In this document: positions 1,539-30,144 of the stretch, piece after piece
How the letters are laid out: each line of letters begins with the position of its first letter
How positions within the stretch are numbered: the first letter of the stretch is position 1
IMG/VR virus record: IMGVR_UViG_3300032820_000067
Span: 1 to 31,523 of that record
Length of the DNA stretch: 31,523 bases
Reading direction: 5' to 3' (one strand)
Origin: a virus
The notes under the pieces: generated by a model
Told to the model about the DNA's origin: nothing
The model's database searches: none
What the model saw: only the letters and a program-made list of their open reading frames with translations
Translations under genes and position numbers: made by a program

Positions 1539-1549
1539 TTATTATAAAA

Positions 1550-1873: not shown

Positions 1874-1875
1874 AA

Positions 1876-2395: not shown

Positions 2396-2423
2396 TATTT
2401 AACTGAAGAACAGGTAAAAAATA

Positions 2424-3128: not shown

Positions 3129-3148
3129 AGAAAAAAAAAGTATAAGCT

Positions 3149-3880: not shown

Positions 3881-3918
3881 CAGTTCTTTTTAATTAATTA
3901 ATTTGGTAAAATAAAATC

Positions 3919-4584: not shown

Positions 4585-4588
4585 TATT

Positions 4589-5593: not shown

Positions 5594-5608
5594 CAAGGAA
5601 AAAGATTA

Positions 5609-5821
5609 ATGGATGAAAAACAGTCCAGAGAAAATGAGTTAGCGATTACTGAAATAAAAGGTGAATTAAAACTTATCCATTCTCGTATAGATACAATAAA
5701 GAATAACGATCTTCACCATATTCAAAAATCTGTTAACTCTATAAATAAAGTTCTCTGGACAATTGGAGTTATGGTCTTCAGTCATTTTTTATATGCTCTT
5801 CGTTCTCTTTTATCAGGTTAG
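5609..5821 (+). CDS. Small coiled-coil protein with C-terminal membrane anchor (XhlA/holin-like topology)
   Basis: 70 aa. AAGGA at 5595-5599 is nine bases from the ATG and gives a good ribosome binding site. Residues 1-48 are charged and helical (E-N-E-L-A-I-T-E-I-K-G-E-L-K-L-I-H-S-R-I-D-T-I), and residues 49-66 (L-W-T-I-G-V-M-V-F-S-H-F-L-Y-A-L) are a single transmembrane helix followed by R-S-L-L-S-G. A cytoplasmic coil with a C-terminal anchor is the layout of XhlA-type haemolysin/holin accessory proteins. It is embedded among tail genes rather than beside the 3TM holin at 26019. Lysis accessory, or membrane-penetrating tail factor, are both possible. Family not recognised with certainty. 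Confidence 0.78.
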   Translation: MDEKQSRENELAITEIKGELKLIHSRIDTIKNNDLHHIQKSVNSINKVLWTIGVMVFSHFLYALRSLLSG

Positions 5822-5839
5822 GAAAAATATTTAAATAAT

Positions 5840-13819: not shown

Positions 13820-16800
13820 GTGCAGATAACTATTGATTCACTTCCTCATTTGGGAACAGTCACAATTCCTGATGGTCTTAACGATGAACAAATTCAGGAA
13901 TATATTCGAGATACTTATTCTGATGTTTTACCAGATGAATTAAAAACATCTACCTTTCCAAATCAAATGGCATTACCTGATATATCTGATATAGATCTGT
14001 CAAATTTGCCTGATATGAGTAACCTTGCACCTCCTATATCTACAGATCCTTTTATGGGAATAGTTCCGTTATCACCTTCTGATTATAAACCAGCTAGAGG
14101 TCTTCAATCAATTCCAAAAACAGACGAGGGAACAGCTTTAGGTCGTGGTTTATCCAGTGGTATTTCTGGTTTCACTACAGCAATTGGAACAACTTTTAAA
14201 CTAGGTTTACCAGGACTTGTTGAAGAGGCTACAGGACTTGATACTGTCAATCGTCAGGATGTTGCCCGACGTTATCAGCAGATGCAAGCAGATGCTCAAG
14301 TCGATAAAGCAACAGTAACATGGGACGATGTTTCAGAAACTTTTGGAAAAAAAGGTATAATAGATGGTTTAGATAAACTGCTGACTTACACAGGTGAACA
14401 GATAGGTCGTTCTCTTCCCTACATGGGACCGACAATTGCAGGTGCAGTTACAGGTTCGGTAATTTTGCCCATACCTATTCTTGGAACTATTCTTGGAGGA
14501 ACGTTAGGAGGAGCAGCTACCTTTTTTGGTATGAACCTTGAACGTCAGATAGCTGAAAAGAGTAAAGCTACAGGTAAACCACCAGAACCTGAAGAATTAG
14601 GTTTTGCAGGAAGTGCAATTACAGCTATTCCTCAAGCTGCTTTAGATACAGCGTTATACTTAGCTTTTGGTCCGGCGGCTCGTTCACTGGGAGTATTGGG
14701 AAAATCTCCTACTGCTTTTGCTCGACAAAGAGCTATTGCCAAAGATATGGGAACCAAGACAGCTGAAGAACTGGCAGCAGGTCGTGTTGCTCTAGGGAAA
14801 ATGCTGGCAAAAGAAATACCGAAAGGTATGGCTATAGGTACATTAGTTGAAGCTCCAACAGAAACAATGCAACAAGCTCTGGAAAGATTACAGGCTGGTC
14901 TTCCTGTAGATCCAGCAAATGCAGATGCGTTTGCTGAATATCTGGAGTCAGGTATAGCCGGAGGATTACTTGGGGCTGTATTCGGAGCCGGAGGAGGAAG
15001 TTTTCGTGGTTTAAGTAAAAGACAACGCCTCCAAGGAATTATGCGTCCCTATTCTGAAAAAGTAAAAGCTCTTCGAGCAAAAGGTATAAGTTTTGATGAT
15101 ATAAATCAATCAATGGTACGAGAGGTAGATGAAGAAGGGAAAGCAACCTCCCCTGGTGGATGGCTTGGACTAGCTCGTTTATATAATAAAGAGGTACGTG
15201 CTACTCTTCGTGACAGACCTACATCAGATATTATAGTAGGAGGTACTGTACCTTCTGATACTACTGATACTATTGATGATGATGCTGTAGAAGTTAAAAA
15301 GGAAGATATAGATGTAAAAGAAGAATTAAGGGAAGGAGAAATAGCAGCCTATAAAGAGGTTGTAAAAACGGCTCTCAGCGATGATCAGAATCCTATAGAT
15401 GCTCTTGTAGGTGTAGGTTTTGGTTTAGATCAGAATACTAATAAACTTAACATAGAAGAATTAAATAAAATTATAGGATCAGTAAGAGGACATAATCTTT
15501 CTGATGAGGAAATAGCAGACGCTAAAGAACGTATTGAAGAAGGTCGGCCTCCAAGACCACCTGAACGTACAGAAGAAGAGGTTCCACCATTAAAAGAAGG
15601 AGAAGCTTTTGAACCACTGCTACAAGAAAGAGGGGCAGTATATCAGACAGCGGAACAGGAAGCTCGTCAAAAGGCGGAAGATGAAAGAAGAACCATAAAA
15701 ACTGCTGAAGAAGTATCGCAACGTAGAGAGGTTACTGGTGATATTATTAGACCTTTTGTTGGAACAGAAGAATATGTATCTAGTCGTAAAGAGAAAATAG
15801 ATAGAGGAGAAGAGGAGCCTGAATATTATAATCCTCGACATGATCCTGAAGCTGTTCCTCATTTAAAACTTTCTTTAAAACAATTAAAATTTCCTGAAAG
15901 ATGGTTGCCTCGTGCTCAACAAACATCAGTATTAAAACAACAGGAAGAACAGAGAAAAAAACAATCTGCTGCTGAATGGAATAAAATTGTTTCTGAAATG
16001 ACACCTGAAGAGTGGAAAAACTCTAGTCAAGCTCTCGAAAGAATTAATAAAACTTTAAGGCGTAGACGGTTAATAGAGGAAATGCGTTCTCCTTCTTATA
16101 TGTTGGGGCCGGAAAGAGTATGGAGAAAGGGAGAAGAAGTTTACGCTGTGGACCCGACAGCTACTTTTGCAACTTCTTTTGGAACTGTTGATCCAGAAAC
16201 TTTAATACGGGAAGAACCTGACCCACCTATGGCTCTTCGTCGTAATGTACAATTACAACGACAAATGAGAACTTTACGGGGAGCGTTTTCTGATACAGCT
16301 TACAAAGAATATTTAAGAAAGAGAGAAGAAGATAGGGAAAATTCTCCTGAATTAGATGCTGATAAACAGAAATTACTTTTGGCACGAATAAAAAATGAAA
16401 ATGAAAAAAAGAAATATAAATTAACTAAAGATGAGCAACAATCTTTTACAACTTTACGTAATAAACTTGAAAACAAAATAGATCTTTCCAATGCAGAAAC
16501 AGCAACGTTAAAAAGATTAACAAATAAAATAGACAATTATATTAAGGCAGAAAAAGATTGGCTGGAGGTTAGAGCCGATAATAAAGTTGCTATTAAAATT
16601 GACAAGGCTCTTAATATTCTTGAAGAGAAACGGATACAAGAACGTTTGGAAAAAACTGATTTAGAGAAGAAACGAATAAAACAAAGAGTTGTTGTTGACG
16701 CTGATGCAGCTGGACCTAAAACTTCTGCGTCTCGTATTGACCTTGAATTATTTGAAACAGCTGGAACAGCTATTGATCATTCTTACACAGATGAAAAGGG

Positions 16801-19800
16801 TGAAGTTCAATCTATAAATATTACTCCTTCGGTAGCTTTGAATTTAAGAGAAAAATATCTAAAGGATAAAAAGAACATTAAAGATAGTGATTATACTTTA
16901 GAGCGTGTTAAAGAAGAAATTGATAAGTTTCTTAAACCTCTTACAACAAAAGATGGAAAAATTAAGGGTGGAAGACAAATACAATTAACGGAAGAATTTA
17001 AGAATATACCTAATGTTGCTATAAAAACTATAGAAAAAATTGCTAATTATAAACCGCAAGTTAATCGTCTTGATTTTATAAGGGAAAAGGTTTTAGAAAC
17101 AACGAATCCAGAAATGAACGGTGCAATGCTTGATTTTCTTACTACTACAGATTTGAAAGGCAGACCAAAATTTGGCTGGATGGACATCAGCAAGAAAATT
17201 ATTTTTGGTGTAGGTCCAAATAATATTCCCTTTATATCTTTTACATTAAAAAATCAAAAGACAAAACCAAAGCCGATGCCACTAACCAGTGAAGGTGATA
17301 TAGATATTGATTTAGCAGAGAAACAAAAGGCAAATAATGAACATTTAGAAATTGTTCCTGCAACAGAAGCTTATATAACAGCAAAAGATATAGAGTCATC
17401 TGGTTCTGAGGCGGATTGGATAGCAAAGACAAATCCTTTATTTTTACCTGAACCTTGGACATATAATCTTGACGGAACAGTACGTCTTTTCGGTGTCCTT
17501 CCAGCAGAGACCGAAGGAGTAGGAAAAGAACGTCACGCAGCAGTAATGAAATTAGCAACGAGCAGGATTGGTAATAGATTTAATCAGAGAAGAGCTTTCT
17601 TGGATTTTTCGGAAGAAGTCTTTTCAAGAGGATCTATTTCTAAACCTGAAGAAGAAAAAGCCCGTGATCTCATAGAGGAATTAGGTATTAGTTTAGTGGG
17701 AACTAAACCTGAGATGATAGAAGATATAACAGTAATAGAAGAACCAGAATTTAAAGGTATTCTTCTACAGAAAAAAATTACACTTTCAACACTGAAAGAA
17801 ATTTTTGATGAAGTATTTCCAGAATTAACAGCATTAGAAATGGAAAACGCTAGAAAGGCTCAACTAGAAGGGGAGTCTTTAGATGAAACCGTTTACAGGA
17901 TAAGAATGGCAAAGAAAAAGGAAGATAAAGAACGGACAAAAAGAACCAATAAAGATTATAAAGATGCTGCTGCACGGGAACAGTTAAGATTACAAGACAC
18001 CTTCAGAGAACCTTTTGTTCAAGCACAAACGATTAACGTACTAGAAAATGAGTTGGAGAAATTAAAATATAATTATCAACAAAATCAATCTGCGATGTCA
18101 GATACACAACTTCAAGCAAAATCATCGGAAATAGAGGATCTTGAGAAACGTATTGAAGATTATAGAGAAAAGGTAGGTATTAAAGAAGTAGTAGAAGAAG
18201 AAGAGAAGGCGGCAGTGGAACGTGCTCCTAAAAGCGAATGGAAAGTCGAGTCAGATACTAAAGATAAATTAAAAGAAGCCTTAGTTGAAACAGATACAGA
18301 TCCAGAATCATCACCATTAAAAGCAGCTATATTAAATAAGAATATGGCAGATAGAGTAGTCGGTGAAGAAATTCTTCTGACTAATCAGGAACGACAGAAT
18401 ATTTTAAACTGGATTGCTGATAAACTTGGAAGTTCTGTTGAAGTTATTTTCTTGGCACAGAAACAACTTCAGGAAAAATGGAAGGATATGGGAGGAGCCG
18501 AAAGTTTAACAGATAGAGTCATGGCTTTTACTGATCCTGTCAGTCGTATCATTGTTCTATCTTCAGACAGAAACTTATTAGGCGATACCATACACGCAGC
18601 AGGTGAAGAAGTTTTTCACATGTTTGAAGCATTGGCTATGACTGCTAAAGAAAGAAAATTATTTGCTTCTGTTTTGAATCGTAAGCTGGCTGAAGAAAAT
18701 AATATAGATCTTAGTTCTTATTCAAAAGCACAACAAAATGAAGAAGCTAGAGCTAAACTGGTTGCGAGATATTTTAGTGGTATTCCTATAAAGGGACTGA
18801 CAACTCCTGTGAAACGTCTTCTCTATAAAATGAAGATGTTCCTAAACAGGTTGCATAAATTTATTACAGGAAAAGATTGGAAGTTAAGTCCAGAAGAACA
18901 GGTTATAAAAAATCTTGAACAACTTAACAACGGTGAATTAGCGGCCCGTGTAGGGGCATCTCCCAGTTTGGAGCAAGCTTCCGTTACAGCGAGTACAGGA
19001 TTATGGGGAGCCGTAAAAGGAAGTCATCTGCTTACAGCTAGTAAAAATTCTCTCAATGATCTTGTAAATGCACAGGATATCACCAATACAGGTAAAAGAC
19101 TGAGTTTATGGAATAGATGGATTACGCATTTAAGTGGAATGTCTGCCAAGTATCCTCTCTTTGGAACTTTTTATAATCATCTTGAAGAAGAGATAGCTTT
19201 AAGAAATAGATTTAAAAATAAGTCTTCTACAAATTTACAGGACTTTCTTGACGCAACACAGGCGATGTTACCGTGGGGAAAAAAGAATGCAGAAGCTAAA
19301 CGGATACTTAAAGATGTATCAACTTTTATAACGTTAGCAGATTTTTTAAATCTACGAAGAGATGAGATTATAGATTATACAATAGAATTAGAACCTTCTC
19401 CGATACCAGATGAAAAACGAATTAAATTGGTAACAGGTACAGACCAAGTTGTACCTACAGATGCTTACATGCTGGACAAGATGGGTCTTACAGGTCAGAA
19501 GTCATTTTCATTGACCGATGAAGCTTCTCAAAAAGCTTTTGATGCTGTTTATAAAACATTTAGAGACAGCTATCAGGATTATCAACGATCTTTTCTGAAA
19601 ATGTTATCTGATACAGGATTTTCTTTTATAGACGATGTGGCTAAAGGAGGAGAAAGAACCGTTTTTGATACTTTAGAGGCTAGACGAAAGTTTATACGAA
19701 TGCCGTCAATCGACTATAAGGATTTAAATACTAATATTTCCGGTTTATATCCTCGTCTTTTAGATTACGTAAAAGATTATCTGGTTATAAATGAAGATAC

Positions 19801-22633
19801 AGATGTAGTAGTTCCTTTTAACGGCATAAAAGAATATTATGAGAAAGCAAATAAAAGGTATCCACCAGGAATGGGAATAGATGAACCAGATGCAAAAGAA
19901 ATAGCTGAAAAGTCTACAGAATATTTACATGATAAATTAGAACGTGCTTCTAAAAGTCCTGCCTTTGGAGGAACCAGTACGACACCAGCCGTTCTTTACA
20001 AAAAACTATCACAATTATATTCATCATTTTCTACTTTGAAAGATATTGAACATAACATATATGTTCCTCATTTCCGATTAGGACAGAAGGCCGTCCATGT
20101 AGCACAGAAGAAATACGATAACAAAACAGGGAAAATAAAAACCAGAACTTATCAAAATGCAGAGGGAAAAACTATAACAGAAAACGTTATGGAAACTGTT
20201 ATGGTTCGACCTATACCACCTACACGATGGAAATCTGTAGGATTAGCTAACGCAGATATAAAAGCAACTGAACGAACAGCACGGGAGATAGCTGATCAGG
20301 CACGAAGAGAATTTCCTGAAAAAGACGGATACGATATAAAAATTATAGATTTTAATAAAGAAAGTCTTTTCGGTGATGCCAAAGGAAAGGAACAGGAAAG
20401 GTTATCTTTACGACGTGCTCTTCCTTTAATTGACAAAGCTTTAATGGCTTTAGGTGGATACGCTGCTGATCCAAATGATACTGAAACGTTGATGAAAGAT
20501 CCACGTAAAGGGCAGTATATAATGGATCTTATGGAGGAAATCCATCAGAAAGCAGGACAAAGAGCATTTGAAAGATTTACTACAGAACGAAGAGATCCAC
20601 CTATTGTTGGTTATTTTAACGAAGATAACAACGATGGAAGTTATTTATCAACGGCTCTTGAAAGATACATTAACAGTTCAGCAAATATTTCTTCAAGCTT
20701 GTGGCAACAGGCGGCTATTAACGATACTTTCAAAGTTCTGCAAGAGAGACAGCCTGGTCTTTATCAGTATGCTTTGGATTCATGGTTATACTTTAACACA
20801 TTCAGAGCACAAGATGAAGCGTTAAGAGCTTTTGCATTCCATGCTTTTCTTGGTTTTAATTTATCTTCTTCTGCTCTTAACCTGTTACAGATACCACAAT
20901 CTTCTTTTCCCATATTGGGAAGTATCATGGGAGCTACCAAGTCGGCGGCTTCTTTGTCGAAAGCTTTTCTTGATTCCAGTAGAATGCTTAAAGTTTTTGG
21001 TAAGCAAGCTGCTTCTTTAGGAGACTACGGTTTTAATTTCAGAGGAAAGAAACCGTCTCACGTTACACCTGATGAATGGAATATGTTAAAGACAATGCAC
21101 GATATAGGACAGATACAGCCTATTCAAAACTTGGATTTAGCAGGTGAATATTTTGGAGATACAGGTGGTTTGCAAAGATACGGTTTCTCTCGAAGAATTC
21201 TGTTTGCTTCTGCGTGGGCCTTTGGTTTAACAGAAAATATCAATCGTGTAGCTACTTCTTTATCTGCTTATCGAATGGCAAAGAGTAGTCTAAAAAATGA
21301 TAAAACAAAAAGACGTATTAAACTTTTTGCCCGTCATACACGTTTTGCTCCTTACTTTAAAATGATAGAGGACAGGCAGCGTCTTAATGGTTTGTTGATA
21401 AGTGAAGAAGGACTGCCTACTTACTTAAAAGGATTAAAAAAAGACGAACAATTTACTTTGTTAACTTCTCACATGATGATTGAGAAAACGCAGTTTATGA
21501 TGGGTAAACAGAATCGTCCTGGTTTGTTTCGAAATTTTCTAGGTCAACCAACGATTGCAGGATTAGCTACTCAGTTTCAAAGTTATCCATTTCAAATGAT
21601 GGAGAATTGGTCAGGTGCTTTTCAACGGGCGTTAACAGGTCGTTTCGGTTTCGAAGACGATGCAGGAACACCTACAGAATTAACACGAGAAGAAAGATTG
21701 ATGGCTTTAAAACAGGGTATCTTAATGACCAGTGGTTTTGTTGCATTCGCTGGATTGGTAGGTCTACCTTTTGCAGATGATACAAATGAATTATTAAAAA
21801 TAATGACTCGTAATCTGGGAGATAATATAGAATTTGATGCAATAAAATATTCTCGTAATGAAATGAATAAAATTTTTGGTGCTGAATTTACCGAAGGAAT
21901 TATGTATGGTCCTTTAACAAGATCGGCCCTTAACCTTGTTGGCTTTCCTATTGATCTATCAAGACGGGGAGGAATGGGAAGTTTAATTCCTTTTATGAGA
22001 GCTTTTACAGGGACACCTTCACCACAGGTTATGGTTGGTCCTGCTGGAACACGGATCTTTGATTGGGCGCAGGATCTTGTAAGAACAATGAACGATCCAG
22101 CTATGTCAGTTCCAATTAAAACATATGCCTTGTTAAGTTTTGCTTTTCCTGTAGCTCTTTCCAAGATATTCAGAACTTTTTCCGAAATACCAACCAGAGG
22201 TTTTACAACTAAATCAGGCATGACACTTATACCTCCTGATGAAATCAGCTGGCAACAGATTGTAAGTCACATGATAGGTTTTACACCAGGAGAATTAGCT
22301 AAAGAATATGAGAAACGTGGTATTAAAAACTATGCTAATCTTCGTACCCGTCCCGGTGCTCGAATCAGAGCAAATGCTATTGCCCGTTTAATGACAGATT
22401 CAATTGAAAATGACGATCCAGATAAATGGTCAAGAGCTATGGAGTTGTATTCAGAGGCTATAGATCACGATACAAATGCTATTTCACGAGGAGATTTAAC
22501 TTCTGTTTACGCTATCAGCTTCGGAAGAATTATTGATCTGGTTATGATGAATCTGAGCGAAGAGAAAAGAATATTACAACGAACACGTAAAATTGTTCGT
22601 CCTGCCTTAATGGAGCAACTTAATCCAATTTGA
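13820..22633 (+). CDS. Giant internal virion protein (2937 aa), polyvalent/ejection type, with degenerate zincin-like motif
   Basis: It starts with GTG at 13820; AGGA at 13806-13809 is ten bases upstream. The N terminus (I-D-S-L-P-H-L-G-T-V-T-I-P-D-G-L-N-D-E-Q-I) fits the short opening domain seen on many giant phage proteins. Residues ~195-245 form a Gly-zipper hydrophobic region (I-L-G-T-I-L-G-G-T-L-G-G-A-A), with more hydrophobic helices to ~395. Residues ~480-1500 are charged and coiled-coil-like. At residues 1592-1601, H-A-A-G-E-E-V-F-H-M resembles a zincin H-E-x-x-H helix but has Glu in place of the first His; a downstream N-E-E-A-R-A-K-L-V-A-R-Y could hold the third ligand. The C-terminal ~750 residues contain Q-F-Q-S-Y-P-F-Q-M-M and two hydrophobic helices (~2632-2650 and ~2764-2785), reminiscent of LPD38-type domains. 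Expected role: ejected protein that forms or stabilises a trans-envelope DNA channel. The zincin and LPD38 comparisons are inference. Confidence 0.85.
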   Translation: MQITIDSLPHLGTVTIPDGLNDEQIQEYIRDTYSDVLPDELKTSTFPNQMALPDISDIDLSNLPDMSNLAPPISTDPFMGIVPLSPSDYKPARGLQSIPKTDEGTALGRGLSSGISGFTTAIGTTFKLGLPGLVEEATGLDTVNRQDVARRYQQMQADAQVDKATVTWDDVSETFGKKGIIDGLDKLLTYTGEQIGRSLPYMGPTIAGAVTGSVILPIPILGTILGGTLGGAATFFGMNLERQIAEKSKATGKPPEPEELGFAGSAITAIPQAALDTALYLAFGPAARSLGVLGKSPTAFARQRAIAKDMGTKTAEELAAGRVALGKMLAKEIPKGMAIGTLVEAPTETMQQALERLQAGLPVDPANADAFAEYLESGIAGGLLGAVFGAGGGSFRGLSKRQRLQGIMRPYSEKVKALRAKGISFDDINQSMVREVDEEGKATSPGGWLGLARLYNKEVRATLRDRPTSDIIVGGTVPSDTTDTIDDDAVEVKKEDIDVKEELREGEIAAYKEVVKTALSDDQNPIDALVGVGFGLDQNTNKLNIEELNKIIGSVRGHNLSDEEIADAKERIEEGRPPRPPERTEEEVPPLKEGEAFEPLLQERGAVYQTAEQEARQKAEDERRTIKTAEEVSQRREVTGDIIRPFVGTEEYVSSRKEKIDRGEEEPEYYNPRHDPEAVPHLKLSLKQLKFPERWLPRAQQTSVLKQQEEQRKKQSAAEWNKIVSEMTPEEWKNSSQALERINKTLRRRRLIEEMRSPSYMLGPERVWRKGEEVYAVDPTATFATSFGTVDPETLIREEPDPPMALRRNVQLQRQMRTLRGAFSDTAYKEYLRKREEDRENSPELDADKQKLLLARIKNENEKKKYKLTKDEQQSFTTLRNKLENKIDLSNAETATLKRLTNKIDNYIKAEKDWLEVRADNKVAIKIDKALNILEEKRIQERLEKTDLEKKRIKQRVVVDADAAGPKTSASRIDLELFETAGTAIDHSYTDEKGEVQSINITPSVALNLREKYLKDKKNIKDSDYTLERVKEEIDKFLKPLTTKDGKIKGGRQIQLTEEFKNIPNVAIKTIEKIANYKPQVNRLDFIREKVLETTNPEMNGAMLDFLTTTDLKGRPKFGWMDISKKIIFGVGPNNIPFISFTLKNQKTKPKPMPLTSEGDIDIDLAEKQKANNEHLEIVPATEAYITAKDIESSGSEADWIAKTNPLFLPEPWTYNLDGTVRLFGVLPAETEGVGKERHAAVMKLATSRIGNRFNQRRAFLDFSEEVFSRGSISKPEEEKARDLIEELGISLVGTKPEMIEDITVIEEPEFKGILLQKKITLSTLKEIFDEVFPELTALEMENARKAQLEGESLDETVYRIRMAKKKEDKERTKRTNKDYKDAAAREQLRLQDTFREPFVQAQTINVLENELEKLKYNYQQNQSAMSDTQLQAKSSEIEDLEKRIEDYREKVGIKEVVEEEEKAAVERAPKSEWKVESDTKDKLKEALVETDTDPESSPLKAAILNKNMADRVVGEEILLTNQERQNILNWIADKLGSSVEVIFLAQKQLQEKWKDMGGAESLTDRVMAFTDPVSRIIVLSSDRNLLGDTIHAAGEEVFHMFEALAMTAKERKLFASVLNRKLAEENNIDLSSYSKAQQNEEARAKLVARYFSGIPIKGLTTPVKRLLYKMKMFLNRLHKFITGKDWKLSPEEQVIKNLEQLNNGELAARVGASPSLEQASVTASTGLWGAVKGSHLLTASKNSLNDLVNAQDITNTGKRLSLWNRWITHLSGMSAKYPLFGTFYNHLEEEIALRNRFKNKSSTNLQDFLDATQAMLPWGKKNAEAKRILKDVSTFITLADFLNLRRDEIIDYTIELEPSPIPDEKRIKLVTGTDQVVPTDAYMLDKMGLTGQKSFSLTDEASQKAFDAVYKTFRDSYQDYQRSFLKMLSDTGFSFIDDVAKGGERTVFDTLEARRKFIRMPSIDYKDLNTNISGLYPRLLDYVKDYLVINEDTDVVVPFNGIKEYYEKANKRYPPGMGIDEPDAKEIAEKSTEYLHDKLERASKSPAFGGTSTTPAVLYKKLSQLYSSFSTLKDIEHNIYVPHFRLGQKAVHVAQKKYDNKTGKIKTRTYQNAEGKTITENVMETVMVRPIPPTRWKSVGLANADIKATERTAREIADQARREFPEKDGYDIKIIDFNKESLFGDAKGKEQERLSLRRALPLIDKALMALGGYAADPNDTETLMKDPRKGQYIMDLMEEIHQKAGQRAFERFTTERRDPPIVGYFNEDNNDGSYLSTALERYINSSANISSSLWQQAAINDTFKVLQERQPGLYQYALDSWLYFNTFRAQDEALRAFAFHAFLGFNLSSSALNLLQIPQSSFPILGSIMGATKSAASLSKAFLDSSRMLKVFGKQAASLGDYGFNFRGKKPSHVTPDEWNMLKTMHDIGQIQPIQNLDLAGEYFGDTGGLQRYGFSRRILFASAWAFGLTENINRVATSLSAYRMAKSSLKNDKTKRRIKLFARHTRFAPYFKMIEDRQRLNGLLISEEGLPTYLKGLKKDEQFTLLTSHMMIEKTQFMMGKQNRPGLFRNFLGQPTIAGLATQFQSYPFQMMENWSGAFQRALTGRFGFEDDAGTPTELTREERLMALKQGILMTSGFVAFAGLVGLPFADDTNELLKIMTRNLGDNIEFDAIKYSRNEMNKIFGAEFTEGIMYGPLTRSALNLVGFPIDLSRRGGMGSLIPFMRAFTGTPSPQVMVGPAGTRIFDWAQDLVRTMNDPAMSVPIKTYALLSFAFPVALSKIFRTFSEIPTRGFTTKSGMTLIPPDEISWQQIVSHMIGFTPGELAKEYEKRGIKNYANLRTRPGARIRANAIARLMTDSIENDDPDKWSRAMELYSEAIDHDTNAISRGDLTSVYAISFGRIIDLVMMNLSEEKRILQRTRKIVRPALMEQLNPI

Positions 22634-22658
22634 CACCAGACATTAGGTAGTCTATATA
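22630..22658 (+). promoter_or_regulatory. Candidate sigma70 promoter (TTGACA-N17-TATATA) for the glycosyltransferase genes
   Basis: TTGACA at 22630-22635 and TATATA at 22653-22658 are separated by exactly 17 bases; the -35 matches the consensus fully. The -35 overlaps the stop codon of the giant gene (TGA 22631-22633). Transcription would begin near 22665, about three bases before the ATG at 22668, giving an almost leaderless message. No good Shine-Dalgarno is seen before that ATG. AT-rich DNA yields such matches by chance, so confidence is moderate. Confidence 0.45.
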
Positions 22659-22667
22659 AATTATATT

Positions 22668-23408
22668 ATGTATAACGTTTTTATAGGCTATGATTCCCGT
22701 GAAGGTGAAGCTTACGATGTCTGTAGTCATACCTTAACTCATCACGATAACGTAAATTGTTTTCCTCTTAATCATAGAACGTTAAGACAGGCAGGACTGT
22801 TTACCCGTGAATGGTTTGTAGAAGGTAACGGACAGTACATAGATGTTCAGGATGGTAAACCTTTTTCCACAGAATTTTCCCACTCCCGTTTTCTCACACC
22901 TGTTGTTGCTAAAAAAAGAGGACTGAAAGGCTGGGTACTTTTCGTTGACTGCGACTTTATGTTTCGAGCTTCCGTTAAATCGTTATTTGATATGGTTGAA
23001 GATAAGTACGCTGTGATGTGCGTTCAGTTTGATTGGGACAATCCTGACGAAAGAATAAAAATGGATGGTGTCACCCAATCAGCCTACCCTCGAAAACTAT
23101 GGTCTTCTCTTACGTTATGGAACCTCGATCATAAAGCTAACGATGCTGTTACAGCTAACTACGTAAACAAAACTGACGGCGGAAAGCTTCATGCGTTTAA
23201 CTGGTTAACGGATAAACAGATTGGAGCGTTACCGCCTGAATGGAATTATGTAACGGGTGTAACGAATAAGCATGTTATTCCTTCAGCTGTTCATTTTTCC
23301 AAAGGTGGACCGTGGCTTACTGTTCATCAGGATACACCGTATGCAGAAGAATGGCGTAAGAATTTTGTCGAGACACGTTTAAAATATACGCCAAGGATTT
23401 ACGATTAA
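22668..23408 (+). CDS. Glycosyltransferase, GT-A fold, GT8-like
   Basis: 246 aa. It begins Y-N-V-F-I-G-Y-D-S-R-E, the opening of a family of small GT-A glycosyltransferases found in phages and bacteria. F-S-T-E-F-S-H-S-R-F-L-T-P (residues 66-78) would line the nucleotide-sugar site, and L-F-V-D-C-D-F-M-F (residues 91-99) carries the D-x-D metal-binding pair (Asp94, Asp96). A C-terminal H-F-S-K-G-G-P-W (~207-214) resembles the H-x-x-G-x-x-K/P-W motif of GT8 enzymes that binds the diphosphate. The expected reaction is transfer of a sugar from a nucleotide sugar to a surface glycan or protein; donor and acceptor are unknown. Two bases separate it from the three-domain enzyme downstream, so they are probably co-transcribed. 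Confidence 0.85.
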   Translation: MYNVFIGYDSREGEAYDVCSHTLTHHDNVNCFPLNHRTLRQAGLFTREWFVEGNGQYIDVQDGKPFSTEFSHSRFLTPVVAKKRGLKGWVLFVDCDFMFRASVKSLFDMVEDKYAVMCVQFDWDNPDERIKMDGVTQSAYPRKLWSSLTLWNLDHKANDAVTANYVNKTDGGKLHAFNWLTDKQIGALPPEWNYVTGVTNKHVIPSAVHFSKGGPWLTVHQDTPYAEEWRKNFVETRLKYTPRIYD

Positions 23409-23410
23409 CA

Positions 23411-25690
23411 ATGAATAAAATACTGGTTGTTTCTTCTTTTCATACGTCAGCGTGGGAAGTCTACGGAAAAAACTTTGTTGATTCTTTTATCAAGAACTGG
23501 GACAAAGAAGTTGATCTTGTTATTTATTATGATGGACCTAACGCTGATAAGTTTTTACCTAAAGATGATTCTGAAATTGAATATAGGAACCTTGATGATA
23601 GCAAAGATCTGAAATGGTTTAAAAAAACTTATCCAAATCGGAACGGTAAGAACGAAAAAAAGGAATACAACTATCGGCTGGACGCTCTTAAATTTTCCCA
23701 TAAAAGTTTTGCCATGTCCGAAGCAGTACGCATCGTTGTTGAAAACAATCTGGATTACGAATGGGTCATCTGGCTGGATGCAGATGTTATAACTCGCGTT
23801 CCGTTTCCTACTGAAAAACTTCTTGAGATGCTGGGTAACTGTGAAGTAGCACATCTGGGACGAACGGCTATAGACTACAGTGAAACAGGTTTCATTGCGT
23901 TTAACGTTAAGAAGAACAATCACGCTACGGAACTGATCGTAGATCTGGAAGGACTGTACCTGAGTGGAGAACTGTTCGGGTATCGGGAATGGACAGATGC
24001 TTTTGTTTTCACACGTCTTCTGAAACTTCACGAGGCACACGGTCTGGTAGTTAACGATCTGAGTTTAGGCTGTCCTGATCTGAATGCGTTTGAAGCTTCT
24101 CCTCTGGGAAGTTACCTTACCCATAAAAAAGGAAATAAAAAATACGAGAACAAGGAAGCTGTTCCGACTACCGTGAAAACACGTTACGACGTTATTAATA
24201 AATTGATTGCTGAATATAAGTGTAGCAATATTCTTGAAGTAGGAACATGGAATGGCGATAGGGCAATATCTATGGCACAAGCTGCGTTTAAAAATAGCGA
24301 TGTGGTGCATTACACTGGATTTGATTTGTTTGAAGAGGCGAATAAAGAAACGGATCAAAAAGAATTCAACGTAAAAATTCATTTCTCTGAGAAAGAAGTA
24401 AAAGAAAAACTGAATGAGTATGCTACTGACGTAAGAAAGGACGGGAAGATATTTACCTATTGCATTATCAAAGGTAATTCCCGTTACAGTTTACGACGGT
24501 TAAAGGATAACGATTTCTGCAACATTCAGAATATAAAACCTGACTTTGCTTTTATAGATGGTGGGCATAGTATTGAAACCATTACCTCTGATTTTGAAAA
24601 CTTAAAAGATAAATCACCTATCATTGTATTTGACGATTACTATACAGCTGATCCTGTCGGGAGTATACCTGACGTTGAGAAGTACGGTTCTAATAAACTA
24701 TTTGATAATATAGATATTGACGGTTCCAAAAAGTTTCTGGTACAGGCTAATGATCGTGTTAAAGATGGTGGCTTTACTAACTTGGGCGTTCTTCTTATAC
24801 GACCCACTCTTCCTCTTCCCAACTTTCCTGAAAGTGTAGGAGCCAACCAGATACCTATTAGGGTACGGCCAAAAGATTGTATGCCCGATGAACATATTCA
24901 TGCGAATATAGAGGCAAATGAAAAGAAACTGGATAAATGGATTATAAAAAAGGGAAGATTAAATAACGAGCATATCATTATTGCTTCAGGCGGTCCTTCC
25001 CTTTTAAAGTATATAAAAGATTTAAAAAGTTACAAAAAGAAAACAGGAGCTAAAGTTGTCTGTGTTAAACATTCTCTTCCTGTTCTTCTGGAAAACAATA
25101 TTGTACCGTGGGCCTGTATGATTCTTGATCCACGTCCTGTTGACGGTGTATCCACTCACGGTGTAGTGCGTTCTACATTATTTGATAACGTTCCCAAAGC
25201 AACTAAATTCTTCGTAGCTTCAATGACAGATATATCAGTTCTGGATTTACTTATTAAAAAGAAAGCGGATATATATGGATGGCATGCCTATTCAGATGCG
25301 ATTAAAGAGTACGAGCCGTTAAAGAACAAGATGCTGGTTACAGGAGGAACGTGTGCGGCCATGAGAGCGTTAGGTCTGATGTTTACGTTAGGCTTTAGAA
25401 AGTTCAAGATGTACGGTTTTGATTCTTCGTTTGATGAGGAGCCAAAGGATAAAAAAGCTGTAGACGAAAATAACAGAAAGAAATATATTCATGTAGGACT
25501 AGGAGCTACTACAGAGAAATTCTGGACAACCGGAGAACTGCTGGCGATGGCACAGGATTTCGAAGAACTTCTGGGAAGAGAAGATATAGATATTGATCTG
25601 GATGTACAGTGTGGTGGTTTAATTCAGGCTATATGGAACGACAAAGTTCAGAAGAAACGTCCAACTTATAAAGAGATATTAAAACAATGA
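23411..25690 (+). CDS. Three-domain glycan enzyme: GT-A glycosyltransferase + class I methyltransferase + MptE/DUF115-like domain
   Basis: 759 aa. Residues 1-235 are a GT-A transferase with W-L-D-A-D-V-I (D-x-D at 123-125). Residues ~256-465 are a SAM-dependent methyltransferase of the Methyltransf_24 kind: I-L-E-V-G-T-W-N-G-D (274-283) binds SAM, F-I-D-G-G-H (381-386) and V-F-D-D-Y (406-410) match the later motifs. Residues ~520-745 match the MptE-like/DUF115 domain (A-S-G-G-P-S-L at 525-531; L-D-P-R-P at 572-576; G-G-T-C-A-A at 645-650; M-Y-G-F-D at 667-671), a fold found in Maf flagellin glycosyltransferases and archaeal 6-hydroxymethylpterin pyrophosphokinase. Leu codons are CTG in 17 of 27 cases in the first domain but 2 of 15 in the methyltransferase, suggesting separate origins. 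Likely builds and O-methylates a surface or virion glycan. Domain calls are firm; the substrate is unknown. Its stop overlaps the next ATG (ATGA). Confidence 0.85.
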   Translation: MNKILVVSSFHTSAWEVYGKNFVDSFIKNWDKEVDLVIYYDGPNADKFLPKDDSEIEYRNLDDSKDLKWFKKTYPNRNGKNEKKEYNYRLDALKFSHKSFAMSEAVRIVVENNLDYEWVIWLDADVITRVPFPTEKLLEMLGNCEVAHLGRTAIDYSETGFIAFNVKKNNHATELIVDLEGLYLSGELFGYREWTDAFVFTRLLKLHEAHGLVVNDLSLGCPDLNAFEASPLGSYLTHKKGNKKYENKEAVPTTVKTRYDVINKLIAEYKCSNILEVGTWNGDRAISMAQAAFKNSDVVHYTGFDLFEEANKETDQKEFNVKIHFSEKEVKEKLNEYATDVRKDGKIFTYCIIKGNSRYSLRRLKDNDFCNIQNIKPDFAFIDGGHSIETITSDFENLKDKSPIIVFDDYYTADPVGSIPDVEKYGSNKLFDNIDIDGSKKFLVQANDRVKDGGFTNLGVLLIRPTLPLPNFPESVGANQIPIRVRPKDCMPDEHIHANIEANEKKLDKWIIKKGRLNNEHIIIASGGPSLLKYIKDLKSYKKKTGAKVVCVKHSLPVLLENNIVPWACMILDPRPVDGVSTHGVVRSTLFDNVPKATKFFVASMTDISVLDLLIKKKADIYGWHAYSDAIKEYEPLKNKMLVTGGTCAAMRALGLMFTLGFRKFKMYGFDSSFDEEPKDKKAVDENNRKKYIHVGLGATTEKFWTTGELLAMAQDFEELLGREDIDIDLDVQCGGLIQAIWNDKVQKKRPTYKEILKQ

Positions 25691-26013
25691 CTGATGTTAT
25701 TAAATTTCCAATTAAAAGTATAGTCCGTTCTGTTCAAAATGATTTACCTGATGAAGACCATGAAAAAATAAGAAAAATTATTTTGGAATCAATGGATGAA
25801 ATAAAAGAAGAGATCGAAGAAAATAAAAATATAAATGGTATTGTTGTATTGGCTTTTGAAGACAAGGGGAAAATGCCAAAAACTTACGATTGGTTTGCTG
25901 GCGATCTTAGTTTATCTGGAGTATATTTAACGTTGGATAAATTAAAAATAGAATTGATGGAAGTTGTAAGTAATAAAGATGAAAAGAACGAAGATAACGG
26001 AGAAGAAAGGTAA
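25687..26013 (+). CDS. Small hypothetical phage protein
   Basis: 108 aa, overlapping the previous stop by ATGA, so translationally coupled. Residues 15-48 are a charged helix (D-H-E-K-I-R-K-I-I-L-E-S-M-D-E-I-K-E-E-I-E-E-N). A strand I-N-G-I-V-V-L-A-F-E-D follows, then D-W-F-A-G-D-L-S-L-S-G-V-Y-L-T-L-D-K-L-K-I-E-L-M, and an acidic tail. The last pattern, a strand, loop and helix ending L-D-K-x-K-x-x-L-M, resembles small proteins next to lysis genes in marine phages, none with known function. It has no membrane segment. It lies immediately before the holin. I do not recognise the family. Confidence 0.78.
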   Translation: MTDVIKFPIKSIVRSVQNDLPDEDHEKIRKIILESMDEIKEEIEENKNINGIVVLAFEDKGKMPKTYDWFAGDLSLSGVYLTLDKLKIELMEVVSNKDEKNEDNGEER

Positions 26014-26018
26014 CGACT

Positions 26019-26429
26019 ATGGTTTTTGGAATAGCTGAATCAGTAATAGGTGTAGCCGGAAAAGTTCTGGATAAGTTTGTAGAAGATAAAGATCTTAAAA
26101 CAAAACTGGATTTCGAATTACGAAAAGCTTACACTGATGCCAACCTTGGGCAAATCGAAATAAATAAGGAAAGTGCGAAGCATCCTTCCATCTTTGTCGC
26201 CGGAGCTAGACCAAGCATCATGTGGATATGTGCTTTTGGATTGGCGTGGCAATTCGTATTCTTGCCCTGTGCTACATGGTACATGACTGTCAGCGGTACT
26301 CCCGTTGTTCTACCAGATATTCAAACTGAAGGATTAATGAGCTTGACGTTGGCTCTTTTAGGACTTGGTGGCATGCGTACTTTCGAAAAGCGGAATAACA
26401 CCCACAGAAATAATATGAAGCATTCTTAG
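26019..26429 (+). CDS. Holin (GTA/phage 3TM holin family)
   Basis: 136 aa. Residues 1-55 are amphipathic and charged, ending in the family signature H-P-S-I-F-V-A-G-A-R-P-S-I-M-W-I (55-70). Membrane segments follow at ~66-90 (C-A-F-G-L-A-W-Q-F-V-F-L-P-C) and ~104-121 (G-L-M-S-L-T-L-A-L-L-G-L-G-G-M-R), then T-F-E-K-R. This matches the holin family known from the Rhodobacter gene transfer agent and marine phages (PF11351). It would insert in the inner membrane and trigger lysis timing. No endolysin is recognisable beside it or elsewhere in the window. Its stop (TAG 26427-26429) overlaps the stop of the opposing gmd gene, so there is no room for a terminator between the two transcription units. 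Confidence 0.88.
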   Translation: MVFGIAESVIGVAGKVLDKFVEDKDLKTKLDFELRKAYTDANLGQIEINKESAKHPSIFVAGARPSIMWICAFGLAWQFVFLPCATWYMTVSGTPVVLPDIQTEGLMSLTLALLGLGGMRTFEKRNNTHRNNMKHS

Positions 26430-27481
26430 CCGAATTCTTTAACGTCCCAATCCACCATCTCTTGAGCCAGAGTATGAAGTGTGTGTTTCCGTTTCCATTG
26501 AAGATGGCTCTGTGCTTTGATGGAAATGCCCAACAACATATCAACTTCAGAAGGACGAAAGAATTCTTCAGATGTTTGTACAATAAGATGACCTGTCTTA
26601 TTATCCTGTACACTGAAATCTTTTCCGAAACCGTTAAAGGATACGTCCCATTTCATCTTTTCCAAAACAAGTTGCAGGAAATTTCTTACTCTGGTTGTTA
26701 ATCCTGTTGCTATAACAAAATCATCTGCCTTGTCCTGTTGAAGCATTAACCACATGGCGTCAACGTAATCTTCAGCATGCCCCCAATCTCTTTCCGCTTC
26801 AACGTTTCCCAACTTGAGAACATGTTTTTGCTGGTCGTATTTCTTTTCTCTTAACAACCTGGAAATAACGGCCAGGTTCTTGGTTATTTTACGGGTAACA
26901 AATTCTTCTCCGCGCAACGGACTTTCATGGTTGAACAGAATGCCGCACGAAATAAACATATCGTAAGCTTCCCGATAGTTGATGCAAGTGTGATGAGCAA
27001 ATGCCTTGGCCGTCCCATAAGGACTGCGTGGATGAAAGCGTGTCATTTCTGTTTGTGGTGTCTCCCGAACTTTACCAAACATTTCCGAACTGGATGCCTG
27101 ATAAATTCTCGGTTTATAAGAAGAGTCACTTAACATAACGTGACGTACAGCTTCCAGTAAATTCAGTATACCTACAGCAATAACGTTTGTTGTATAGATA
27201 GGTATTTCAAAACTCGACTGTACAAAACTCATGGCTCCCAAATTATATATCTCGTCAGGTTTTATTTTTTCTACTATCCTCCACAGACTTTCGTACTCTG
27301 TTAAATCTCCGTCGTGAATAATAATATTTTTATCCATGTTTAATTTTTTAAGACGCCAAAGGTTAGGTGCACTGTTGCGACGAACCAATCCGTGCACCTC
27401 ATAGTTTAGTGTTTTAAAGAGCAATCGGGACAGATAAGCACCGTCTTGCCCTGTAATGCCCGTGATTAAAGCTTTTTTCAT
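26426..27481 (-). CDS. gmd: GDP-mannose 4,6-dehydratase
   Basis: 351 aa, full length for the family. Converts GDP-D-mannose to GDP-4-dehydro-6-deoxy-D-mannose, the precursor of GDP-fucose, GDP-rhamnose and GDP-perosamine. Visible features: Rossmann G-x-x-G-x-x-G in T-G-I-T-G-Q-D-G (7-14), R-R-N-S near 34-37, N-L-G-A-M-S-F-V (80-87), catalytic S-S-S-E-M-F-G (130-136), Y-x-x-x-K (Tyr155, Lys159), N-H-E-S-P-L-R-G (184-191) and the C-terminal F-R-P-x-E-V-D motif (308-314). All key residues are present, so it should be active. The ATG at 27481 has AAGGG eight bases upstream; a GTG 36 codons earlier is rejected because the extension lacks family similarity. A 137-base non-coding leader (27482-27618) precedes it on this strand. 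It is the last gene of the minus-strand series and faces the glycosyltransferase genes. Reductase or epimerase partners are not in the window. Confidence 0.94.
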   Translation of the reverse strand: MKKALITGITGQDGAYLSRLLFKTLNYEVHGLVRRNSAPNLWRLKKLNMDKNIIIHDGDLTEYESLWRIVEKIKPDEIYNLGAMSFVQSSFEIPIYTTNVIAVGILNLLEAVRHVMLSDSSYKPRIYQASSSEMFGKVRETPQTEMTRFHPRSPYGTAKAFAHHTCINYREAYDMFISCGILFNHESPLRGEEFVTRKITKNLAVISRLLREKKYDQQKHVLKLGNVEAERDWGHAEDYVDAMWLMLQQDKADDFVIATGLTTRVRNFLQLVLEKMKWDVSFNGFGKDFSVQDNKTGHLIVQTSEEFFRPSEVDMLLGISIKAQSHLQWKRKHTLHTLAQEMVDWDVKEFG

Positions 27482-27618
27482 GTTGTGACCCTTAAATTTA
27501 GATAAATCGCTGAGAAAGGACGTAGAGAGCCGTACAGAAGAATTGATACGATTCTGGTAGGGTGGGTAGGAAAAGGTACGAGATGACACCTCAGTGACGC
27601 TATACGAGCTTGTTTTTG

Positions 27619-28077: not shown

Positions 28078-28347
28078 TCAGCTACCATACCAAGGATGAA
28101 CAACTTCTCCTTCTTCGTGGGAAACTGTTTTTACGTCATCAGGAAATAATTCTATGAGCGTCTGCTCTACACCCATCTTTAACGTAAATATACTAGCCGC
28201 ACATCCTGCACAAGAACCTGATAACTTAACGTGAACATTTTTATTTTCTTCATCGTAAGACAGTAACTGAATAACTCCTCCGTGTTGAGCAATAGAAGGA
28301 GCTACTTGATCAGCCAGTACATCTTCAATCTTTGCAAACATTGTCAT
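28078..28347 (-). CDS. NifU C-terminal/Nfu-type Fe-S cluster carrier
   Basis: 89 aa consisting of one NifU C-terminal (Nfu) domain. I-E-D-V-L-A-D-Q-V-A-P-S-I-A-Q-H-G-G-V-I-Q (7-27) and L-S-G-S-C-A-G-C-A-A-S-I-F-T-L-K-M-G-V-E (42-61) match the family, with Cys46 and Cys49 as the C-x-x-C that binds a bridging 4Fe-4S cluster between two subunits. The usual Pro/Ser after the second Cys is Ala here. It would receive and pass on Fe-S clusters in the cytoplasm. The ATG at 28347 is chosen because AAGGAG lies ten bases upstream; an ATG two codons later is less well spaced. It has only the Nfu domain, lacking the A-type domain of bacterial NfuA, so it is a minimal phage-encoded version. It follows nrdJ and a tiny membrane ORF on the same strand. 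Confidence 0.9.
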   Translation of the reverse strand: MTMFAKIEDVLADQVAPSIAQHGGVIQLLSYDEENKNVHVKLSGSCAGCAASIFTLKMGVEQTLIELFPDDVKTVSHEEGEVVHPWYGS

Positions 28348-28361
28348 TATTAAAATGCTCC

Positions 28362-28439
28362 TTAAAAAATTAACCAGATGATTCCTGAGAGTACAATAAT
28401 ATCTGCACAGATAGACCAGACAATATAAGTTCTTAACAT
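28362..28439 (-). CDS. Candidate 25-residue single-pass membrane peptide
   Basis: A short ORF in the gap between nrdJ and nfu. ATG at 28439 opens M-L-R-T-Y-I-V-W-S-I-C and continues as one hydrophobic helix to the end (I-I-V-L-S-G-I-I-W-L-I-F, then TAA at 28362-28364). The positive charge sits at the N terminus, consistent with an N-in transmembrane helix. AAGG lies about 12 bases upstream, a so-so ribosome binding site. The stop immediately precedes the AAGGAG that serves nfu, a spacing expected of real adjacent genes. No homologue is known to me. It could also be chance in AT-rich DNA. Confidence 0.45.
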   Translation of the reverse strand: MLRTYIVWSICADIIVLSGIIWLIF

Positions 28440-28458
28440 CCACTTACTCACGCCTTGC

Positions 28459-30144
28459 CTAAACTCCACAGCTTCCACCATGTCCTGTTATATGGCAAAT
28501 ATCGTGTGTCTCAACGTTCTCTTCAAATTCTTCGCCCAGTTTGTCAGCAGCTTCTTTATATGAGACACGAGTAAGAGGCTGACCACCACGACACCCATCA
28601 GGGTAAACAGTAAAACCTCGTAGACGACAAGCATAAGAAGCAAGGACGTTAGTAAAATCATCCACCATATCTTCATTGTTCAGTTTACTTCCCCACTGTG
28701 GTAAATTAATTGTAGAAGAAATAGACATGTCCACATAGTCTTGAACGTCTGCCTGAAACGCTATTCTTCTTTTGTAGTTTTCGGAAAGGTCGAGAGCCGA
28801 TTCAATCTTGTCAGGAGAAATTCCGTACAGATCTATAATTTCCTGCGCTGCACTATCTACGACATATTGGTAATGCCAACGGCTTTGACCTTTAAGAAAC
28901 CGTCGCTTGTAAGCTACAGCAAAGATAGGTTCAATACCTGTGCTGGTTCCAGCCAGTATACCTATGGAACCAGTAGGAGCGATAGCACGATTAGCAACAG
29001 GTCTGGAGATTTCCAACGTATCCGAAAACGAGGAACTGGTCTTGTCGGATACGCCTTTGTAGACAGAAAGCCACTTGTGCAGTTCAGGTGAAACTTCATA
29101 TTTGTACTTACGTTTAATGAGCCACTCATGCATACCCATTAAACCTAAACCAAGTCGTCGGTTCTTGTCCCTTACCTTGTAAACTTTATCGTAAGGAAGT
29201 TGAGCTTTCAGTGTACCACAGAGAAGAAACTTTGTTGCCAGTTCAATTATCTGAGAAAACTCCCTAATATTATCGACACGACCCAGATTAACGCTGCCCA
29301 GATTACATACGTCACTGTCGTCTTCGGAGGAGACTTCTGTACAAGCATTCCGTAGCGTTTCTTCTTCCTTGTCAAAAAAGTTAAACGAGAAGCCTGGTTC
29401 TCCCGTACTAAGTGCTTGTTGTACATTGGTTTTAAATACATCTCCTGTATCTTTGTTCTCCATATAATTAAGAATCCAATCGGTATCATAATTAACGGAT
29501 ATGTTGGTCATGTCCAACGGACAGGAAAAGTTAAAATCCTGTTCCTTGATTTGACCGTAACTATATTCAGTATCGCCTACTGTCATTTCATACCAGTTCT
29601 TAGTGGTTAGAAATTTTTCTACATCACGATGTTGCCAGTTTAAACTTGCATAGATAGCAGAACGACGACTGCCTCCCTGCATAACTCGTCTTCCTATTTC
29701 GTTAATCATTAACATTTTGGGAATAGGGCCAGAAGCTAGTCCACCTGTTCCTCTTAAAACTTCTCCTTCAGGACGGTAGATAGAATAATCAACACCTATT
29801 CCTCCACCTGTCATTAAACAAGATTCAGATTTCCACGACAGGTTTGCCCAATCTTCCCGTGTATCTTCTTCGGCTTTTAACAGAAAACAGTTGTTAAAGA
29901 ATTTGTTAGTTCGTCCTGCGTAATAAAGATAACGTCCACCGGGAATAAATTTTAAATCAGTAATAATATTGATAAGCTCATCGACTTCATCAGAAGTAAG
30001 ATGTGTATCACATACATCGTGAACCAGTGTACGGGCCAGATCAGACCAAGTTTCACAACCTGTATGCTGGTATTTAAGTTTAAAAATATCTTCGCTGAAT
30101 TTAGAGCGAAACATAGGATTCTCATTGCTTCTAAACGTCGGCAT
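28459..30144 (-). CDS. nrdJ: Ribonucleotide reductase, class II (adenosylcobalamin-dependent) type
   Basis: 561 aa. Reduces ribonucleotides to deoxyribonucleotides for phage DNA synthesis. Key residues: Cys96 (N-N-C-F-L-L) and Cys280 (V-C-N-L-G-S-V-N-L) form the active-site redox pair; N-A-C-T-E at 266-270 gives Asn266, the thiyl-radical Cys268 and Glu270; T-G-G-G-I-G (112-117) and A-P-T-G-S-I-G (389-395) bind substrate phosphate. The C-terminal C-H-I-T-G-H-G-G-S-C (Cys550, Cys559) is the tail pair that re-reduces the site. There is no N-terminal ATP cone. The short length and the absence of a small-subunit gene next to it support class II, which needs host-supplied or scavenged B12. Class assignment is by motif and length; the active-site set is certain. 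The start ATG has GGAG 13 bases upstream inside a small inverted repeat. Confidence 0.92.
   Translation of the reverse strand: MPTFRSNENPMFRSKFSEDIFKLKYQHTGCETWSDLARTLVHDVCDTHLTSDEVDELINIITDLKFIPGGRYLYYAGRTNKFFNNCFLLKAEEDTREDWANLSWKSESCLMTGGGIGVDYSIYRPEGEVLRGTGGLASGPIPKMLMINEIGRRVMQGGSRRSAIYASLNWQHRDVEKFLTTKNWYEMTVGDTEYSYGQIKEQDFNFSCPLDMTNISVNYDTDWILNYMENKDTGDVFKTNVQQALSTGEPGFSFNFFDKEEETLRNACTEVSSEDDSDVCNLGSVNLGRVDNIREFSQIIELATKFLLCGTLKAQLPYDKVYKVRDKNRRLGLGLMGMHEWLIKRKYKYEVSPELHKWLSVYKGVSDKTSSSFSDTLEISRPVANRAIAPTGSIGILAGTSTGIEPIFAVAYKRRFLKGQSRWHYQYVVDSAAQEIIDLYGISPDKIESALDLSENYKRRIAFQADVQDYVDMSISSTINLPQWGSKLNNEDMVDDFTNVLASYACRLRGFTVYPDGCRGGQPLTRVSYKEAADKLGEEFEENVETHDICHITGHGGSCGV

Follow-up and report, generated by a model that had tools for sequence, protein, structure and literature searches.

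A single phage gene encodes a GT-A glycosyltransferase, a class I O-methyltransferase and a DUF115/MptE-like domain in one chain, and pairs with an adjacent GT8-like gene in a cassette whose work is very likely glycan assembly. The DNA analysed (the window hereafter) is a linear IMG/VR record of 31,523 bases from an uncultured, probably marine phage; a 31.5-kb fragment does not show that phage to be virulent, as the first-pass annotation had it. The best explanation of the cassette's product is a short, sometimes O-methylated glycan made from host sugar nucleotides. That the fusion and its 246-residue partner form a cytosolic glycan-building cassette, with a phage structural protein as the most likely acceptor, is a proposal that we hold with about as much doubt as confidence.

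We infer the chemical steps, the donor sugars, the reaction order and the acceptor as follows. Sugar transfer, with nucleotide sugars of the host as donors, would fall to the GT8-like protein and to the GT-A domain at the N-terminus. The middle domain may O-methylate a sugar hydroxyl in the manner of MycE and ThnM1, with a metal on Asp-383 and Asp-408/Asp-409 and with His-386 as the base. The C-terminal DUF115 domain would be a transferase of Maf type, either attaching the glycan or lengthening it. A structural protein of the phage, present in the same cytosol, would be the acceptor; a host surface glycan is less likely in this role.

Architecture of the fusion protein and its partner

Shuffling the window 50 times gave stop-free runs of at most 199 codons, against 759 residues for the fusion, and dN/dS among the three-domain family members compared was ~0.07-0.18 in every domain; thus, the frame is a real, selected gene. 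Its start follows the stop of the GT8-like gene by 2 nucleotides (Table 1). Pfam recognised PF01973 and PF13578 in the chain, both above the curated cut-off, and nothing in residues 1-250; a PDB sequence search with the single fusion protein yielded nothing useful. An AlphaFold2 model of the whole chain, built with 22 family members, had a pLDDT of 84 and a pTM of 0.44, so the single domains are well predicted and their mutual placement is not. Foldseek comparison of this model with the PDB recovered the GT-A, O-methyltransferase and Maf/MptE folds. The first-pass annotation had divided the chain into a D-x-D GT-A domain, a class I methyltransferase and a GGPSL/DUF115 C-terminus. Profiles and AlphaFold/Foldseek bear out both these assignments and the domain borders, and the D-A-D, ILEVG, FIDGGH, VFDDY and GGPSL motifs are all intact in the window protein.

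Table 1. Positions in the window of the cassette genes, their domains and motifs, and neighbouring genes.
Feature	Position	Strand	Basis or remark
Cassette gene 1, 246-aa GT8-like GT-A glycosyltransferase	22668..23408	+	phrog_28018, E 2.6e-72
Fusion gene (cassette gene 2), GT-A/methyltransferase/DUF115	23411..25690	+	ATG start, 759 aa
GT-A domain, residues 1-243	23411..24139	+	Foldseek to GT6 enzymes, E about 1e-7
D-A-D, residues 123-125, putative metal/nucleotide-sugar motif	23777..23785	+	D-x-D in most relatives
Class I O-methyltransferase domain (Methyltransf_24/TylF-like), residues 250-478	24158..24844	+	PF13578, Foldseek
SAM-binding motif EVGTWNGDRA, residues 276-285 (ILEVG, 274-278)	24236..24265	+	
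D-G-G-H, residues 383-386 (FIDGGH, 381-386), putative metal Asp and base His	24557..24568	+	Spacing as in MycE/ThnM1
D-D-Y, residues 408-410 (VFDDY, 406-410), putative second metal site	24632..24640	+	
DUF115/MptE-like (Maf-type) domain, residues 485-759	24863..25687	+	PF01973, AlphaFold2, Foldseek
S-G-G-P-S-L, residues 526-531 (GGPSL, 527-531), GGPS loop	24986..25003	+	
KHS (553-555) to LDPR...STHG (572-584)	25067..25162	+	Family-invariant motifs
108-aa small protein, overlapping the stop of gene 2	25687..26013	+	Same cluster at +1 in 17 related loci
Holin, usual downstream neighbour of the cassette	26019..26429	+	phrog_3427, E 5.6e-26
GDP-mannose 4,6-dehydratase (gmd), possible donor supply	26426..27589	-	TIGR01472, 417.8 bits, above cut-off

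The N-terminal domain has no sequence-profile match, Pfam included, and was placed by its predicted fold. Its best PDB structures are GT6 enzymes (alpha-1,3-GalT, blood-group glycosyltransferases and BoGT6a), along with LARGE1, COLGALT1 and GT8 structures; identity to GT6 is ~10% and the target TM mostly 0.45-0.59. Domain-only tblastn retrieved separately encoded homologues from two phage records, MW202713 (33% identity) and Pelagibacter phage Mosig (26% identity). In one subclade of relatives the D-x-D is replaced by N-T-N, which resembles the NxN of BoGT6a, a working motif of metal-independent GT6 enzymes (PMC3961637).

The methyltransferase was identified by PF13578 (Methyltransf_24) over residues 275-410, with an E-value of about 1.3e-9 and 39.3 bits against a cut-off of 26.3. 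Foldseek matched it to the O-methyltransferases TomG, COMT and a B. cereus OMT at E-values of about 1e-6, and six relatives gave weak matches to PF05711 (TylF). MycE and ThnM1 methylate sugar hydroxyls with Mg, using Asp275, His278 and Asp304; the D-x-x-H of the window protein is spaced as Asp275/His278 and is followed by a DD resembling Asp304, a likeness of motif spacing and not of aligned structures (PMC9275233). Judged from these motifs, the window protein appears to carry the signature of Mg-dependent sugar O-methyltransferases (Asp-x-x-His plus a second Asp) in D383/H386/D408-D409. A near twin contig, 97% identical, reads NGGH for DGGH, with Asn at residue 383, by natural variation or sequencing error.

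Of the three domains, DUF115 shows the strongest conservation. PF01973 (MptE-like) covers residues 499-676 with E-values of about 2.6e-18 to 8e-18 (65.2 bits, cut-off 34.6) and matches 22 of 22 family members. The sole NCBIfam match is PseD, a Maf protein, over residues 512-679 (E 5e-9, 35.2 bits against a cut-off of 670), and the full-length Maf/PseD architecture is absent from the fusion. Modelled alone, the domain reached a pLDDT of 88 and a pTM of 0.85. Its best Foldseek match was the Maf structure 5mu5 (E 3.6e-9, query TM 0.62) and the second was MptE, 8sd5 (E 4e-7, target TM 0.67, 17% identity); the whole model gave the same pair at 1.4e-9 and 1.5e-6. Thiamin pyrophosphokinase appeared further down the list, and no sialyltransferase was among the 50 best matches. 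At the level of the predicted model we regard the fold as settled. The GGPS loop varies in the family, with GGPY, GGHS, GGSS and AGPS in relatives.

The product of gene 1 has a DCD motif at residues 94-96, and the DxD is invariant in its relatives. PF01501 (Glyco_transf_8) matched 19 of 22 relatives, the best at 2.7e-7; the window protein itself scored E 0.097, below the cut-off. The best PDB match of the gene 1 profile was the GT8 structure 5gvv (E 0.005). This gene lies one or two genes upstream of the fusion in 161 of the 164 fetched loci that have any upstream gene, which makes the unit a cassette of two genes and four domains. The glycan reading of the first-pass annotation therefore stands, whereas its assembly by one protein gives way to a conserved pair.

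The start of gmd is probably an internal ATG near 27481. The gene is found in 5 of 43 related records, including the near twin, and one bacterial GT-A relative forms a fusion with an FkbM-like methyltransferase and has gmd after it; a methylated 6-deoxyhexose is therefore a reasonable guess, not a finding. No gene of the CMP-sugar synthetase family occurs in the 43 records, so that any CMP-sugar donor would come from the host.

Several other features of the window were recorded. The 2937-residue giant ORF at 13820-22633 (+) matched nothing in Pfam; towards its C-terminus it is similar to large proteins of Pseudomonas, Shewanella and Vibrio phages, some of which carry annotations as DarB-like antirestriction proteins or DNA methylases. 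A TTGACA, 17 bases and a TATATA directly precede the GT8-like gene (22630-22657, +) as a possible cassette promoter; a promoter consensus scan did not list this site and found fewer sites than in shuffles. Downstream lie a small protein with a NifU-like Fe-S domain (28078-28443, -; PF01106, E 8.6e-20) and a 561-residue ribonucleotide reductase resembling class II NrdJ (28459-30144, -), which is shorter than the models and well below their cut-offs.

Distribution and genomic setting

The fusion is no singular find: it is widespread among uncultured phages. A viral-contig scan with the family alignment found relatives encoded in at least 579 uncultured viral contigs. The relatives sampled were the best 80 per scan and are hence biased towards close ones. 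The uncut genes in the fetched loci comprised 154 with GT-A, methyltransferase and DUF115 domains and 6 with GT-A and DUF115 only. One contig of 106,894 bases, IMGVR_UViG_3300025168_000039, carries two copies of the fusion. A library of viral structures contained a full-length match, A0A6J7X5Q0 (714 residues, uncultured Caudovirales phage; 31% identity, E 2e-66).

None of 50,697 phage genome records contains the fusion. Domain-only tblastn against these records returned nothing for DUF115 and weak noise for the methyltransferase, and megablast with the first 25 kb of the window gave no match. The cassette thus represents a common viral glycan chemistry without an isolate in which to study it. 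Among GTDB genomes four loci matched: one full-length, one GT-A-methyltransferase fusion and two free-standing methyltransferases. The full-length match, in a Sneathiella MAG, was rejected as a cellular homologue, being on a phage contig among holin, terminase and ribonucleotide reductase genes; at 33,035 bases this contig is also exactly as long as the IMG/VR contig of another relative. Scanning 385 genomes from that class gave no further full-length match. GT-A-methyltransferase fusions do exist in alphaproteobacterial assemblies. No cellular chromosome in these searches carried the triple fusion, which on this evidence is not a common, characterised bacterial enzyme; what bacteria do have are two-domain counterparts. 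A literature search for DUF115 together with phage found no paper.

The surroundings of the cassette differ among relatives. In the window's subclade the giant ORF is followed by the GT8-like gene, the fusion, the small protein and the holin, in that order; the giant ORF closes the virion gene block and is at -2 in 17 loci, some contigs having been fetched twice. Elsewhere a ribonucleotide reductase, HSP20 or 2OG-Fe(II) oxygenase gene precedes the cassette, and holin and terminase small subunit genes follow it. In many relatives the upstream neighbours are nucleotide-metabolism or HSP20 genes and not virion genes. Among 130 loci counted, a holin homologue lies within +1 to +4 in 71 and an HSP20-like gene lies upstream in 62.

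Other phages carry pieces of a similar module as separate genes. In phages of Caulobacter and Stenotrophomonas and in spring-water phages, the GT8-like gene has homologues that adjoin small methyltransferases, which belong to the family of an extra methyltransferase found at +1 in some relatives. In Caulobacter phage CcrColossus (locus 3617-7286) a PF01973-like protein (gp126; 1.5e-7, below the cut-off), a GT8-like protein (gp129) and a small methyltransferase (gp130) are clustered; the gp126 gene begins where a tail gene ends, and the cluster precedes lysis genes. In DLP6 a GT29-like gene lies in the neighbourhood of the GT8-like homologue. The fusion looks like a compact form of a recurrent phage glycan module. 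Neighbouring proteins of S-SCSM2R, DLP6, Mosig and the Caulobacter phages were also considered as close DUF115 or GT-A homologues, which profiles did not support.

Loss of the methyltransferase site within the family

Motifs were surveyed in 132 distinct proteins, with a tree built on the DUF115 domain. In a clade of 27 rows (support 100/100) the putative metal and base residues are lost, DGGH having become GGGN or GGGD, and DDY having become DNY, DNF or DHY. A separate methyltransferase gene is present at +1 for 55 of 56 proteins of the degenerate clade and for 0 of 76 others. Motif loss and gene gain each map to one branch of the tree; their correlation is therefore a single event and not repeated evidence. 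In another clade the methyltransferase domain has been deleted altogether, leaving GT-A and DUF115. A methyl cap is thus not obligatory in the family: the capping proposed in the first-pass annotation fits the window protein, whose methyltransferase is intact, but is dispensable among its relatives.

The intact group gave dN/dS estimates of ~0.07-0.10 and the degenerate group 0.13-0.18, the degenerate methyltransferase itself being at about 0.18. Purifying selection persists, which argues that this domain is kept for something, perhaps for structure or partner binding. A fuller version, in which a Maf-like/GT-A/methyltransferase machine decorates virion proteins and the fused methyltransferase of one clade has become a non-catalytic partner of the newly gained neighbouring enzyme, seems to us rather unlikely.

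Acceptor, alternative readings and known systems

A virion protein is slightly favoured over the host surface as the acceptor; the former is about an even call, and the latter a somewhat unlikely one. Gene position speaks for the virion in three settings: the cassette comes after the giant ORF that closes the virion block in the window's subclade; the CcrColossus PF01973-like gene begins where a tail gene ends and clusters with a gene 1 homologue; and in an alphaproteobacterial assembly a DUF115-only gene adjoins that of the major head protein. This last gene encodes 277 residues and, within the region 1264-3365 (-), comes immediately after the genes of the major and one further head protein in what is apparently a prophage. 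Against our explanation stand the non-virion upstream neighbours in many relatives, the variable GGPS loop, and the fact that the best structural relatives of DUF115 are a Maf glycosyltransferase and the MptE pyrophosphokinase.

Modification of a surface glycan of the host, LPS or capsule, is the somewhat unlikely alternative just named; it might, for instance, keep other phages or the released progeny from adsorbing. The first-pass annotation had suggested superinfection exclusion, to which nothing in this analysis pointed. Host-surface modification would agree with the reading of Pelagibacter phage glycosyltransferases as LPS modifiers (PMC9599517), with the operon of a Clostridium methyltransferase-DUF115 protein, which has been read as directing surface polysaccharide synthesis (PMC4000134), and with the presence of DUF115-like and glycosyltransferase domains in bacterial glycan neighbourhoods. 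However, neither cassette protein has a hydrophobic segment of transmembrane level, and no flippase or membrane-anchored transferase was among the recurrent neighbour clusters examined. The cassette also usually adjoins genes for holin and the terminase small subunit; this hints at late expression without proving it.

An MptE-like reading, in which DUF115 is a pyrophosphokinase-like or other nucleotide-using enzyme and the chain makes or activates a small metabolite, is improbable. It draws on the Methanocaldococcus MptE as second-best structural match, on thiamin pyrophosphokinase lower in the list and on the name of the Pfam family, which comes from MptE; Maf is nevertheless better both in E-value and in the part of the query covered, PseD is the only NCBIfam match, and the fusion to GT-A and the constant GT8-like pairing point to glycans. 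Still less credible is a decaying chain in which only DUF115 and its GT8-like partner matter. Site loss in the 27-row clade, domain deletion in another, the change from D-x-D to N-T-N in one clade and the superior conservation of DUF115 would fit such decay, but all domains are under purifying selection, the degenerate methyltransferase included, and NxN works in metal-independent GT6 enzymes (PMC3961637). Moreover, the clade without the motif has another methyltransferase next door, and the window protein keeps every motif.

Glycosylation of a hypermodified base in phage DNA is highly improbable: glycosylation of modified DNA is known from phages, and 27 of 130 loci have a 2OG-Fe(II) oxygenase gene within four genes upstream, but this oxygenase is of the PF13640 type without a TET/JBP match and never accompanies the degenerate-methyltransferase clade, no thymidylate synthase-family gene occurs in 27 related records, and Pfam detected no DNA-binding domain in the fusion protein.

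Should the acceptor be a virion protein, as we slightly favour, the cassette would add these phages to those with glycosylated virions and provide a compact, soluble one-chain enzyme for methylated glycans. Its occurrence in hundreds of uncultured viral contigs, against none of the phage genome records, gives the question weight, and the natural series of active methyltransferase, lost site with extra methyltransferase, deleted methyltransferase, and DxD changed to NxN suits tests of the role of each domain.

Maf enzymes, phage glycosyltransferases and a Clostridium methyltransferase-DUF115 fusion (PMC4000134) were already known. A0A6J7X5Q0 has been named only for its methyltransferase ('Methyltransferase domain containing protein'), and we found no functional work on it. 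Serotype-converting (Gtr-type) phage cassettes comprise a flippase and membrane-anchored transferases, neither of which was among the recurrent neighbour clusters examined around the fusion cassette. The Maf proteins (Magnetospirillum 5MU5, Clostridium botulinum Maf and PseD) share the PF01973 fold with the fusion C-terminus, and the window protein has a GGPS-type loop; Maf enzymes glycosylate proteins and have N- and C-terminal domains of their own, without a GT-A or methyltransferase domain (PMC11339370). The activity that defines the flagellin enzymes is transfer of a CMP-nonulosonic acid to Ser/Thr of flagellin; no flagellin gene is among the annotated window proteins. MptE (6-hydroxymethyl-7,8-dihydropterin pyrophosphokinase, 8SD5) has the same fold and is free-standing, whereas the phage domain is fused to GT-A and methyltransferase domains and paired with a GT8-like gene. 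Compared by description, CA_C2196 of Clostridium acetobutylicum has a methyltransferase and MAF_flag10/DUF115 in one chain as the phage fusion does, but it is encoded on a bacterial chromosome, in a carbohydrate operon with a NeuB-like gene, and no GT-A domain is described (PMC4000134). Finally, MycE, ThnM1 and TylF act on sugars of secondary metabolites, whereas the phage methyltransferase sits between two transferase domains.
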